A stretch of DNA of 64,000 bases, taken from assembly GCF_004363655.1 (NCBI RefSeq), contig NZ_SNZH01000006.1, positions 1-64,000 on the forward strand, in the 5' to 3' direction. Positions within the stretch are counted from its first letter, which is position 1; each line of letters opens with the position of its first letter. Below are positions 25,038 through 64,000 of this stretch, one piece after another. This stretch comes from Tahibacter aquaticus (lineage in GTDB: Bacteria > Pseudomonadota > Gammaproteobacteria > Xanthomonadales > Rhodanobacteraceae). Below the pieces are notes generated by a model. It did no database searches and had not been told where the DNA came from. It was given only the letters and a program-made list of their open reading frames with translations. The translations under genes and the position numbers were made by a program.

Positions 25038-26218
25038 CGCGCAGGCACCGGGTGCAGCAGCGCATCGAGGCGGACGTCCTGCAGGCCCGACTCGGCGACC
25101 CAGCGCACGACCTCGGTGGCGGCTTCGGGCCGGCCCGCGGCGAGTGCGGCTTCGAGTGCGATGCGCGCGTCCAGCGGTTCCTTCTGCACGGCCCAGTTCT
25201 GCAGCGCGAGTTCGAGTGCCGCCGCCGGGTCTTGCGCCAGGGCGAGCCGGAAGCGAGACTCTTCGCGCCGGTGTACGTTGTCGCCGCGCTGGCGCAGTGC
25301 GTCGAAGCGTGCGGCCAGTGCATCGCTGCCGGTTTGCGCGGTGTCCGCTCCGAGCAGCCGGTCGGCCTGGGCGCGGCGCAGCAGCAGGCTGTCGATCGGC
25401 GTATCGGCAGCGATCAGCACGGTGACCTCGACCGCGCGCCGACGGTCCAGCAGGAAGTCGGCGTAGGCGGCCAGCGTATAGCTGTCGGCCGGGTCGACGG
25501 CCAGGCTTTGCCGGTACCAGCGATCGGCTTCGCCGTTGCGTCCGAGACGCTCCGCCAGCTCGGCCAGCAGGGTCAGCGCCCAGGTCCGCACCGCTGCAGG
25601 CTGTGCAGCCAGACCCTCTTGCGCGATGGTGTCTTCCAGCACGCGATAGGCTTTCGCGCCGGCGCCGGTCAGTGCGTCGACGCCGGCGCGACAGACCGTG
25701 CCGATGGCCGTGGCACCCGCACCGATGACGTGTTCGCAACTATTCGCGGCGCCGGCCAGGTCGCCGGTTGCCTGCTGCAGGCTGGCGAGGTCTAGCCAGG
25801 CCTGTGCGTGCGCGGGCTGTTCGGCGATCGCGCGGCGCAGGTCGGCCTGCGCCGCAGCGAATTCGTGGCGGTTCTGCCGGATTGCCGCGCGCAGCAGCAG
25901 CACGGGAACCGGCGCGGCTGCCTGTTCCCACCAGGCAGCGAGCGTGGCCTGCGCCTGACCCCAGAGCCGTGGATCGGAAGCGGCGCGCGCCGCGGCGATC
26001 TGCGCCTGGGCCAGGCGCACGGCGATATCGAGATTGGCCGGATCGCGCGCATGCAGCAGACGCAGCGCGCGCACGGCCGAGCTGTCGCCGCGCTGCGCAC
26101 TGCGCGGCAGGGTTTCCAGTACTTCGCTGTCGCTGCGCGGCCGGTACGGCGCGGCGGCGCTGCCGACGGCAAGGCTGCACAGCAGGATCGCGACGGCGAT
26201 GAGGAAAGATGGCGGCAT
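25034..26218 (-). CDS. secreted TPR-repeat protein
   Basis: 394 residues. A signal peptide (FLIAVAILLCSLAVGSAAA) is followed by ~370 residues of helical repeats; clear TPR-like units include NRHEFAAAQADLRRAIAEQP, HAQAWLDLASLQQATGDLAG and NGEADRWYRQSLAVDP. It is probably periplasmic and a scaffold for protein contacts. It lies 49 bp after the DUF4331 gene and overlaps the HupE-like gene by 4 bases, so the three are very likely one transcript and one function. Confidence 0.85.
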   Translation of the reverse strand: MPPSFLIAVAILLCSLAVGSAAAPYRPRSDSEVLETLPRSAQRGDSSAVRALRLLHARDPANLDIAVRLAQAQIAAARAASDPRLWGQAQATLAAWWEQAAAPVPVLLLRAAIRQNRHEFAAAQADLRRAIAEQPAHAQAWLDLASLQQATGDLAGAANSCEHVIGAGATAIGTVCRAGVDALTGAGAKAYRVLEDTIAQEGLAAQPAAVRTWALTLLAELAERLGRNGEADRWYRQSLAVDPADSYTLAAYADFLLDRRRAVEVTVLIAADTPIDSLLLRRAQADRLLGADTAQTGSDALAARFDALRQRGDNVHRREESRFRLALAQDPAAALELALQNWAVQKEPLDARIALEAALAAGRPEAATEVVRWVAESGLQDVRLDALLHPVPAR

Positions 26219-40664: not shown

Positions 40665-41429
40665 TCAGGCACCCGCGGCAATCTGGGCACTGGTCTTGCC
40701 GAAACGGCGCTCGCGCCCGGCGTAGTCGGCCAGGGCGGCCTCGAAGGCCTGAGTGTCGAAGTCCGGCCATAGCGTGGCCGTGAAATGGATTTCGGCGTAG
40801 GCGATCTGCCACAGCAGGAAATTGCTCACGCGCTGCTCGCCGCCGGTACGGATGAACAGGTCGACGCCGGGCTGTCCGGCCAGGCACAGGTAAGGAGCCA
40901 GGCTGTGCTCGTCGATTGCATCGGCAGCCATGGCGCCGCTCTGCACTGCCTGCGCGATGCGGCGTGCCGCCTGGGCAATATCCCAGCGGCCGCCATAGTT
41001 CACCGCGATGTTCACGTCCAGCGCCGTGTTGGCCGCGGTCCTGTCCATCGCTGCATGCATGCGGCTGGCCAGGGCCGGAGCAAAGGCCGACAGCTCGCCG
41101 ACGAAGCGGATGCGCACGCCATGGCCATGCAATTCCTCCACTTCCCGGTCCAGCGCCTTGAGGAACAGCTCCATCAATGCACTGACTTCGTCCGGTGGCC
41201 GCTGCCAGTTCTCGCTGGAAAAGGCGAACAGGGTCAGCGCGCGGATGCCGCGGCGCAGGCAGAACTCGATCGCACTGCGTACCGCCTTCTGCCCGGCGTG
41301 ATGGCCGAAGCTGCGCGGTCGCAGGCGTTTCCTGGCCCAGCGGCCGTTGCCGTCCATGACGATGGCGACATGGCGCGGCAGGCGGTTATCGGTGCTGCCC
41401 GGGATAGGCGGGGGCGTATGCGGTTCCAG
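40665..41429 (-). CDS. uppS: undecaprenyl diphosphate synthase, probable CTG start
   Basis: 254 residues from a CTG codon at 41429. The cis-prenyltransferase motif MDGNGRWARKR begins at residue 25, and the normal conserved lead-in PRHVAIV precedes it, so the first ATG (41357, within MDGN) would delete a strand of the core and the start of the diphosphate-binding loop. No ATG, GTG or TTG occurs between the frr stop and that ATG in this frame; CTG at 41427-41429 has AAGGAG 7 bases upstream (41437-41442). FSSENWQRP, RIRFVGEL, NYGGRWDI and RTGGEQRVSNFLLWQIAYAE complete the family signature. Product: C55 lipid carrier for peptidoglycan and O-antigen. The ribosome binding site overlaps the frr stop. 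Confidence 0.93.
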   Translation of the reverse strand: MEPHTPPPIPGSTDNRLPRHVAIVMDGNGRWARKRLRPRSFGHHAGQKAVRSAIEFCLRRGIRALTLFAFSSENWQRPPDEVSALMELFLKALDREVEELHGHGVRIRFVGELSAFAPALASRMHAAMDRTAANTALDVNIAVNYGGRWDIAQAARRIAQAVQSGAMAADAIDEHSLAPYLCLAGQPGVDLFIRTGGEQRVSNFLLWQIAYAEIHFTATLWPDFDTQAFEAALADYAGRERRFGKTSAQIAAGA

Positions 41430-41441
41430 AGCCGGGCTCCT

Positions 41442-41999
41442 TCAGAGCGACATCAGCTCGTCTTCCTTGGTCTTGACCACGACATCGACATCCTTGATCG
41501 CCTTGTCGGTGAGCTTCTGGATATCGTCCTCGGCCTTGCGCTCCTCGTCCTCGGTGACCTTCTTTTCCTTGAGCAGCTCTTTCACGTGCTGCATCGCGTC
41601 GCGGCGCACGTTGCGTACGGCAACCTTGGCGTCTTCGCCTTCGCCGTGCACCTGCTTGGACAGGGCCTTGCGGCGTTCTTCGGTAAGCGGGGGAAGGTTG
41701 ATGCGGATGACCAGACCGGCAGTGGTCGGGTTGAGGCCGAGGTCGGAGCCGATGATGGCCTTCTCGATCGGCTGCACCATGGTTTTTTCCCAGGGTGTGA
41801 TGGTCAGCGAGCGCGCGTCCTGCACGGCCACCGTGGCGACCTGGGACAGGGGCATGTCACTGCCGTAGTAATTCACTTTGATATGTTCGACCAGCGCCGT
41901 CGAGGCGCGGCCGGTACGCAGGCGCTGCAGGTCGTGACGCAGCGATTCGACGCACTTGGCCATGCGGGCCTGGGCGTCTTGTTTGATGTCGTTGATCAT
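41442..41999 (-). CDS. frr: ribosome recycling factor
   Basis: 185 residues, exactly the family length. It splits post-termination ribosomes with EF-G. RMAKCVESLRHDLQRLRTGRAS and DARSLTITPWEKTMVQPIEKAI are diagnostic; PPLTEERRKAL follows. The start at 41999 gives the usual MINDIKQDA. The gene is normally directly behind pyrH; here the plus-strand yebC gene lies between them, so frr needs its own promoter in the 179-bp divergent gap. uppS follows 12 bp downstream. Confidence 0.97.
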   Translation of the reverse strand: MINDIKQDAQARMAKCVESLRHDLQRLRTGRASTALVEHIKVNYYGSDMPLSQVATVAVQDARSLTITPWEKTMVQPIEKAIIGSDLGLNPTTAGLVIRINLPPLTEERRKALSKQVHGEGEDAKVAVRNVRRDAMQHVKELLKEKKVTEDEERKAEDDIQKLTDKAIKDVDVVVKTKEDELMSL

Positions 42000-42144: not shown

Positions 42145-42178
42145 CCGGCCCCTTTTTCCGGCATTGCAGGTGATCGCC

Positions 42179-42898
42179 ATGGGCAGATTGATGGCTATCG
42201 AAGGGCGCAAGAACGCCCAGGACGCCCGCCGCGGCAAGATCTTCACCAAAGTGATTCGCGAACTGACCGTGGCGGCCCGCGCCGGCGGCGGTGATCCCAA
42301 GGCCAATCCGCGCCTGCGCCTGGCGATGGACAAGGGCCTGGCCGTGAACATGGCGCGCGACGTGATGGAACGCGCCATCAAGAAAGCCACCGGCGAGCTT
42401 GAAGGCGTCAGTTATGAAGAAGTGCGGTACGAAGGCTATGCGCCCGGCGGCGTCGCCGTCATCGTCGACTGCATGACCGACAACAAGGTGCGCACCGTGG
42501 CAGACGTGCGCCACGCCTTCAACAAATGCGGCGGCAACCTTGGCACCGATGGTTCGGTGTCCTTCATGTTCAAGCGCGTTGGCACCCTGAGCTACCTGCC
42601 CGGCAGCGACGAAGACGCCATCACCTCGGCTGCGATCGAGGCCGGCGCCGACGACATCGTGGTGTATCCGGACGACAAATCCATCGATGTGCTGACCAGC
42701 GCCGACAGCTTCGAGGCCGTGAAGCAGGCCATGACGGCCGCGGGCCTGGCGCCCGAGCACGCCGAAGTCGGCCTGCGCGCCGACAACGACATCGCGGTTT
42801 CCGGCGAAACCGCCCAGCAAGTGATCAAGATGATCCACATGCTGGAAGATCTCGACGATGTGCAGAGCGTGTATTCCAACGCCGACATCTCTGCATAA
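42179..42898 (+). CDS. YebC/PmpR (TACO1)-family protein
   Basis: 239 residues. [22 protein letters not shown] and [22 protein letters not shown] are the family hallmark; [27 protein letters not shown] and [17 protein letters not shown] follow. Older literature treats the family as transcriptional regulators; recent work links it to relief of ribosome stalling at proline stretches. It is on the opposite strand inside the pyrH-frr interval. Start ATG 42179 preferred over one at 42164 because it gives the family opening MGRxxxIEGRK. Confidence 0.93.
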
Positions 42899-43102: not shown

Positions 43103-43819
43103 TCAGGTGACCAGCGTTCCCACGGCCTCGCCTTTGCAGATGCGCATGAGATTGCCGGGCACGCCCATGTCGTAGATGCGCAGCGGAATCTTGTTGTCGC
43201 GGCAGAGGGCAATCGCTGTGGTGTCCATGACCTGCAGGTTGCGCTGGATCACTTCGGTATACGTGAGGCGGTCGTAACGCTCGGCGCCGGGTTCCTTCTT
43301 CGGGTCGGCGCTATAGATGCCGTCGACCTTGGTCGCCTTGAGCAGCAGCTCCGCGCCGACTTCGATCGCGCGCAGGGCGGCGGCAGAGTCGGTGGTGAAG
43401 AACGGATTGCCAGTACCGGCTGCGAACAGCGCGATGCGGCCTTTTTCCAGATGGCGGATGGCGCGGCGGCGAATGAAGTCTTCGCACACTTCGTTGATCT
43501 TGATGGCACTCATCACGCGCGCATAGGCGCCGAGTTTTTCCACCGCATCCTGCATCGCCAGCGCGTTCATCACGGTGGCCAGCATGCCCATGTTGTCGCC
43601 GGTGACGCGGTCCATGCCGGCCTTGGCCAGGCCTTCGCCGCGGAAGATATTGCCGCCACCGATGACAACGCCGACCTGCACGCCGGCGCGCTGGACCTCG
43701 ATGATTTCCTTGGCCAGCCGGTTGAGGACTTTCGGGTCGATGCCGTAGTCGGCTTCGCCCATCAATGCTTCGCCACTGAGTTTGAGCAGGATGCGTTTGA
43801 ACTTGATGTCGCTGGGCAT
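43103..43819 (-). CDS. pyrH: UMP kinase
   Basis: 238 residues of the bacterial UMP kinase (amino acid kinase) family; makes UDP from [14 protein letters not shown] (phosphate loop), [50 protein letters not shown] and [15 protein letters not shown] are all present. The start has AAGGAG at good spacing. It is separated from tsf by about 3.8 kb of plus-strand genes, so it needs a separate promoter; a candidate -10 (TATGAT on the minus strand, 43924-43929) lies ~105 bp upstream. Confidence 0.97.
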
Positions 43820-63510: not shown

Positions 63511-64000
63511 GTGGTGACGTATTTTCGAGCGGTTGTGTTGCTGGCCTGGGTCGTCGTGCTGTCTGCTTTTGCGCAACCGGCGCCGGCCGTGGATTACACG
63601 CCGCATGGCACCCAGCCCGGCCTGCTCTGGAGCATCGAGCCGGCCGATGCCTGCGAAGGCTGTCATCGCGGTTCCTCACCGCAGGACGAGGCGCTGCTGC
63701 CCTACAACGCCTGGTCCGGATCGATGAAGGCCAATGCCGGCCGCGACCCGCTGTTCTGGGCCGCGCTGGACGTGGCCAATCGCGACATTCCCGGCGTCGG
63801 CGACTTCTGCCTGCGCTGCCACGCGCCGATGGCCTGGTTCGAAGGCCGCGTCTCCAAGACCGCCACGCCGGGCCAGACAGTCAACGGCGAAAACGGCTGC
63901 ATGCTGCAGGGCAACTACGACCAGCCGGACTACAAAGGCAACGACTACGCCGGCATCAATTGCCAGTACTGCCACCGCATGATGCCGAAGGGGCCGGCCG
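63511..64000 (+). CDS. multiheme c-type cytochrome, paralogue, partial at window end
   Basis: The first 163 codons of a second cytochrome. GTG start (63511; 63505 or 63514 are alternatives), signal peptide LLAWVVVLSAFAQPAPA, then VDYTPHGTQPGLLWSIEP. Three CxxCH motifs so far: CEGCH, CLRCH, CQYCH. The order and spacing (WSGSMKANAGRDPLFWAALD, then VANRDIPGVGDFCLRCH, then NCQYCHRMMPKGP) match the upstream gene closely, so the pair arose by tandem duplication. The gene runs off the window edge. Confidence 0.88.
   Translation, partial: MVTYFRAVVLLAWVVVLSAFAQPAPAVDYTPHGTQPGLLWSIEPADACEGCHRGSSPQDEALLPYNAWSGSMKANAGRDPLFWAALDVANRDIPGVGDFCLRCHAPMAWFEGRVSKTATPGQTVNGENGCMLQGNYDQPDYKGNDYAGINCQYCHRMMPKGPA

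Follow-up and report, generated by a model that had tools for sequence, protein, structure and literature searches.

A very probable CTG start codon for the undecaprenyl-diphosphate synthase gene uppS in Tahibacter aquaticus, kept in eight genomes of its genus

According to passages of PMC11497404, CUG accounts for 0.024% of bacterial start codons and performs poorly in E. coli, with 0.86% of the output of AUG, as compared with 58.4% and 29.8% for GUG and UUG, respectively. For the gene described here, the closest proven precedent that we found is rep of the FIB replicon in F-like plasmids, in which, as in uppS, a good ribosome site precedes the CTG. According to passages of PMC11983097, most records of FIB rep annotate a GTG 14 codons downstream, a CTG-to-CTC change in the FIB replicon of pO157 abolished replicon function, and the CTG is believed to allow just as much expression as is needed. 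The two genes differ in kind: FIB rep is a plasmid replication gene whose start is experimentally proven, whereas uppS is a chromosomal single-copy enzyme gene whose CTG is known from sequence.

Conserved genes can also keep non-canonical starts. In Listeria, six conserved genes have fixed starts of this type, including infC with ATT and rnhC with ATC (from part of PMC13068326). In the eight genomes of the genus of T. aquaticus analysed here, infC appears, as read from position, to start at ATC (seven genomes) or ATA (one) after GGAGG (loci L171–L178), which is the near-cognate class expected of infC. The ATA, in L173, departs from the ATC of its relatives. Like uppS, infC is a core gene that keeps a non-canonical start across a lineage; however, its mismatch lies at the third codon position, whereas that of the uppS CTG lies at the first. 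The infC product, IF3, autoregulates its gene through start-codon discrimination, whereas we know of no feedback from UppS to initiation.

Here, we describe uppS in the same eight genomes, where it appears to start at a CTG; in T. aquaticus, the start is very probably the CTG at 41429–41427 on the minus strand. Outside the genus, ATG, GTG or TTG is available to uppS in all the matched genomes and loci analysed, whereas uppS of the genus has CTG. A search of a literature collection with few subscription journals found no published report of an uppS gene with a CTG or other non-canonical start. Since CUG starts in bacteria are known though rare, the uppS CTG is a further case of a known kind.

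The uppS frame and its product

The analysed DNA, hereafter the window, is a stretch of 64,000 nt from Tahibacter aquaticus (NZ_SNZH01000006.1). Both uppS and its CTG lie on the minus strand, directly downstream of frr, and the features of the locus are as follows.

41442..41999, minus strand: frr, ribosome recycling factor (ORF lists; Pfam RRF, 7.9e-67), directly upstream of uppS
41437..41442, minus strand: Shine–Dalgarno (SD) sequence AAGGAG, read directly; duplex −8.0 kcal/mol; its first base doubles as the final A of the frr TGA
41427..41429, minus strand: CTG, proposed start codon of uppS; CTG-GAN kept in 8/8 genomes of the genus
40665..41429, minus strand: uppS from the CTG, undecaprenyl-diphosphate synthase, 254 aa plus stop (TIGR00055, PF01255 and PDB matches)
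41355..41357, minus strand: first canonical in-frame ATG, the internal Met25 of MDGNGRW; invariant column, no SD pairing

The open frame of uppS spans 41441..40665 on the minus strand, and its first ATG, GTG or TTG is the ATG at 41357–41355, which lies within VAIVMDGNGRW. An earlier note on this DNA had stated that the frame holds none of these three codons between the frr stop (TGA, 41444–41442, minus strand) and this ATG, and that AAGGAG precedes the CTG by 7 nt. Both statements are borne out by reading the minus strand, on which AAGGAG at 41442–41437 is followed by 7 nt and then by the CTG. Started at the CTG, UppS has 254 residues, and residue 26 is the motif Asp. The mechanical ORF list gives a protein of 230 aa from ATG 41357, which is the truncation by gene finders that the same note had foreseen.

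The start of frr itself is probably the ATG at 41999, which is codon 47 of the open frame and is preceded by an SD duplex of −5.8 kcal/mol. pyrH and frr are frequent neighbours; in the window, a yebC/TACO1-family gene (42173–42898, plus strand) stands on the opposite strand between pyrH (43103–43819, minus strand) and frr. Further downstream of uppS, Pfam locates dxr and rseP, and the intervening ORF is one that we take to be cdsA-like.

The product scores 295.1 bits against TIGR00055 (cut-off 109.55) and 271.1 bits against PF01255 (cut-off 27), which places it in the UppS family by either model; fifteen narrower NCBIfam models also match it, each below its own cut-off. Its best solved relatives are PDB chains 5cqb and 1jp3 (E about 5e-88), both presumably E. 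coli UppS. In a 30-sequence alignment, the residues of the DGNGRW and RTGGE..SNFLLWQ motifs are invariant (D26, G27, N28, R30, R194, G196, G197, R200, S202 and N203). As judged from these comparisons, the protein is an ordinary full-length UppS and the start codon alone is unusual. The role of UppS is essential, and each of the eight genomes of the genus, that of the window included, has a single UppS match (G003 is 87% complete).

The CTG within and beyond the genus

One point that the earlier note had put forward for checking was whether the CTG and its ribosome site are kept in relatives. They are kept in all eight genomes of the genus, namely that of the window and seven others (L002–L008). 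In each, a CTG followed by GAN (GAA, GAT or GAC) lies 6–7 nt past GGAG, and the SD duplex before it ranges from −5.8 to −8.0 kcal/mol. Between the frr stop and the CTG there are 12 nt in the window, 13 nt in L002–L006 (five genomes) and 18 nt in L007 and L008; thus, uppS does not keep a constant frame with respect to frr, whereas the SD–CTG geometry is conserved. Six of the eight genomes (that of the window and five of the seven others) have no ATG, GTG or TTG upstream of MDGNGRW. In L007 and L008, a GTG lies three codons past the CTG, with an SD spacing of 14 as against 5 for the CTG (duplex-scan measure), and despite this long spacing it may serve as the start there.

Across columns 0–16 of the codon alignment of the genus, where the N-terminus is variable, the CTG column is the sole one that is invariant in both amino acid and codon, and the four-fold sites of uppS differ pairwise by 18–52% among the eight genomes. 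Three of the 18 CTG codons in the window gene, the start CTG included, are CTG in all eight genomes. Because two of the 17 other CTG codons are thus kept as well, a conserved CTG column among eight related genomes is by itself not strong evidence.

We compared the site with the remaining CTGs of the window. At a spacing of 4–8, as the scan measures it, 103 of 3436 CTGs (3.0%) follow an SD duplex at least as strong as −5.75 kcal/mol, the minimum in the genus being −5.8, and 14 of 3436 (0.4%) follow one that reaches −7.95, the level of the uppS CTG. A literal GGAG at −12..−5 is found for 25 of 3439 CTGs. Taken alone, the SD before the CTG is suggestive; the SD–CTG pair goes beyond chance because it is conserved in all eight genomes of the genus.

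The window also holds 30 conserved ORFs, of which 28 were scanned with Pfam (all except 25650–25955 and 63679–63999) and 24 matched. Among these 24, uppS alone has a best stretch that reaches upstream of the first canonical start, and it does so by a single residue; the TIGR00055 match to UppS begins 8 residues before ATG 41357. The Pfam criterion was used instead of a BLAST comparison of the window ORFs with relatives, since the latter did not discriminate: it flagged 14 of the 30, uppS included, as alignments of stop-to-stop frames extend past the real starts on the upstream side.

We searched 99 genomes, that of the window included, and read the upstream regions of all 96 with an uppS match; no such match was found in three of the 99 (G042, G068 and G074), which are outside the 96. 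Second, weaker homologues occur in five genomes and are outside the start-codon count. A canonical start at least five codons before the motif is missing from 6 of the 96 genomes, all six in the genus, and is present in the other 90, which comprise 88 family or order genomes outside the genus together with L007 and L008. From 593 related stretches, the best 80 were taken as loci of other organisms. All 80 likewise have canonical upstream starts, and the nearest named relatives among them are Rhodanobacter and Dokdonella; the 80-locus and 88-genome sets may share species, and L033 is incomplete at its 5′ end. Canonical starts in all the genomes and loci analysed outside the genus are as would be expected of a lineage trait. 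The proposal of the earlier note that uppS starts at the CTG is supported by these starts, together with the SD–CTG pair kept in the genus.

In 7 of the 90 genomes, TTG is the sole canonical uppS start within 30 codons of the motif (L148, L157, L159, L170, L209, L210 and L211), and in one (L139) no canonical start lies closer ahead of the motif than an ATG at a distance of 34 codons. These loci are candidates for other weak-start uppS genes in the order.

Rival starts and explanations

The ORF list starts uppS at ATG 41357, its first canonical codon, and the resulting 230-aa protein would carry the catalytic-motif Asp as residue 2. However, this form would lose H20 and A22, which are invariant in an alignment of 30 UppS sequences chosen among the loci, as well as P18 and I23, which are at least 90% conserved; the M25 column is invariant in the same alignment. 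It would also delete a β-strand (residues 20–24) predicted directly before Met25 in the AlphaFold2 model, for which the mean pLDDT is 83.0 in the best of five models and 67.8 in the worst, the pTM is 0.82 and residues 1–12 fall below a pLDDT of 50. The SD duplex before this ATG is +1.5 kcal/mol in the window and ranges from −1.7 to +1.5 kcal/mol over the eight genomes of the genus, so that the codon lacks SD pairing. Outside the genus, the 88 genomes and the 80 loci (best 80 of 593) all offer a canonical start farther upstream than this position, and a start here leaves the conserved GGAG–CTG unexplained. We therefore share the view of the earlier note that this ATG is not the true start, and regard initiation at it as very improbable. 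A different non-canonical codon near the CTG is hardly a better candidate. ATC directly precedes the CTG in four of the eight genomes (L003, L005, L006 and L008), and a further CTG, encoding the L of LPRHVAIV, stands at codon −8 in six of the eight. The codon before the CTG is nevertheless not conserved, being GCT in the window and CAC, AAC or ACC in the rest of the other four genomes, and codon −8 is CTA in L006 and TTG in L008; moreover, in the six genomes with a CTG at −8, the SD pairing ahead of that codon is weak (−2.1 to −4.0 kcal/mol). A start at either codon would be a considerable surprise.

The uppS frame is in frame with the frr stop in the window and in L007 and L008 (12 or 18 nt), as an Frr–UppS fusion through stop-codon readthrough would need, and a frameshift at the frr stop is the other route to such a protein. 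In L002–L006, however, the distance of 13 nt makes the frames differ, and no single recoding mechanism fits all eight genomes, whereas the SD–CTG spacing does. The fusion was rejected on these frame differences and is scarcely credible. Lastly, the CTG is one base away from a canonical start, as a sequencing or assembly error at this codon could make it; yet it is shared by eight separately assembled genomes with 18–52% pairwise difference at four-fold sites, by which an error is in effect refuted, making this the least probable of the explanations.

Initiation at the CTG and its possible role

The sequence itself shows the CTG, its SD, the absence of another start in the window gene and the persistence of the site in the genus. 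From these we infer that initiation actually occurs at the CTG and with methionine; output may be low and may be coupled to the translation of frr. The idea of low expression, which the earlier note had raised, rests on the CUG efficiency published for E. coli (PMC11497404). A 30S subunit, either newly bound or left from frr termination a few bases upstream, would pair with AAGGAG, and this pairing would put the CTG in the P site. The fMet-tRNA would then decode CUG with a first-position mismatch, helped by the strong SD, so that the N-terminus of UppS is presumably (f)Met-Glu-Pro. Ribosomes that have just finished with frr would perhaps assist initiation at the CUG.

A variant of the initiator tRNA in the anticodon stem, M1, lowers discrimination against CUG (a passage of PMC11497404). 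In the genus, the normal GGG/CCC initiator stem pattern was found in all eight genomes. ARAGORN assigns tRNA-Met to 8 of the 9 places with this pattern, one per genome, the ninth (L200) being a second, non-tRNA match in G000; the letters of the tRNA gene were read in one locus, L207. We take these tRNA-Met genes to be initiators, by their GGG/CCC stem. A relaxed initiator tRNA as the cause of CTG use was rejected on the normal stem pattern in the eight genomes.

We also analyzed the folding of the region around the start. In 90-nt folds, a hairpin enclosing the SD and the CTG is formed in four of the eight genomes (L002, L004, L006 and L007) and is absent from the window. Inverted repeats about the SD and its CTG were noted in 41400–41460 of the window and in L002–L008. 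In local folds, the GAGCGGA/TCCGCTC arms are complete in four of L002–L006, with L003 departing at the arm end; in L002–L006 the left arm and the frr stop overlap, and L007 has a different stem around the CTG. When the 39-nt region was compared with dinucleotide shuffles, the z value ranged from +1.4 (window) to −2.1 over the eight genomes. The 5% level is passed by L005 alone (fraction 0.020); in the window, the shuffles are more stable than the actual region. As a folding reference, 63 relatives with ATG starts have a mean of −7.5 kcal/mol (standard deviation 5.4) and 34 window ORFs a mean of −9.1 kcal/mol (standard deviation 4.9). Overall, the hairpin does not exceed the shuffles, and we do not claim that it gates the uppS start; hairpin-based coupling to frr is only a lead.

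According to PMC11081497, levels of the lipid carrier UndP are kept low. It is conceivable, although we think it doubtful, that the genus has fixed a deliberately weak CUG on its sole UppS gene as a set-point. Combined with the strong SD, which abuts the end of frr or lies near it, and in several members with a hairpin that masks the SD until a ribosome finishing frr opens it, this weak start would then cap the synthesis of the lipid carrier and tie it to the translation of frr and to the stringency of initiation (IF3).

Gene finders that use only the usual start codons would drop the first 24 residues of UppS, including a predicted core β-strand. All eight genomes examined from the genus keep CTG on this single-copy housekeeping gene, a clean natural case of a start that is invisible to ORF tools restricted to ATG, GTG and TTG. 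This feature of uppS offers a test of whether weak start codons persist because they keep the amount of an essential enzyme low.
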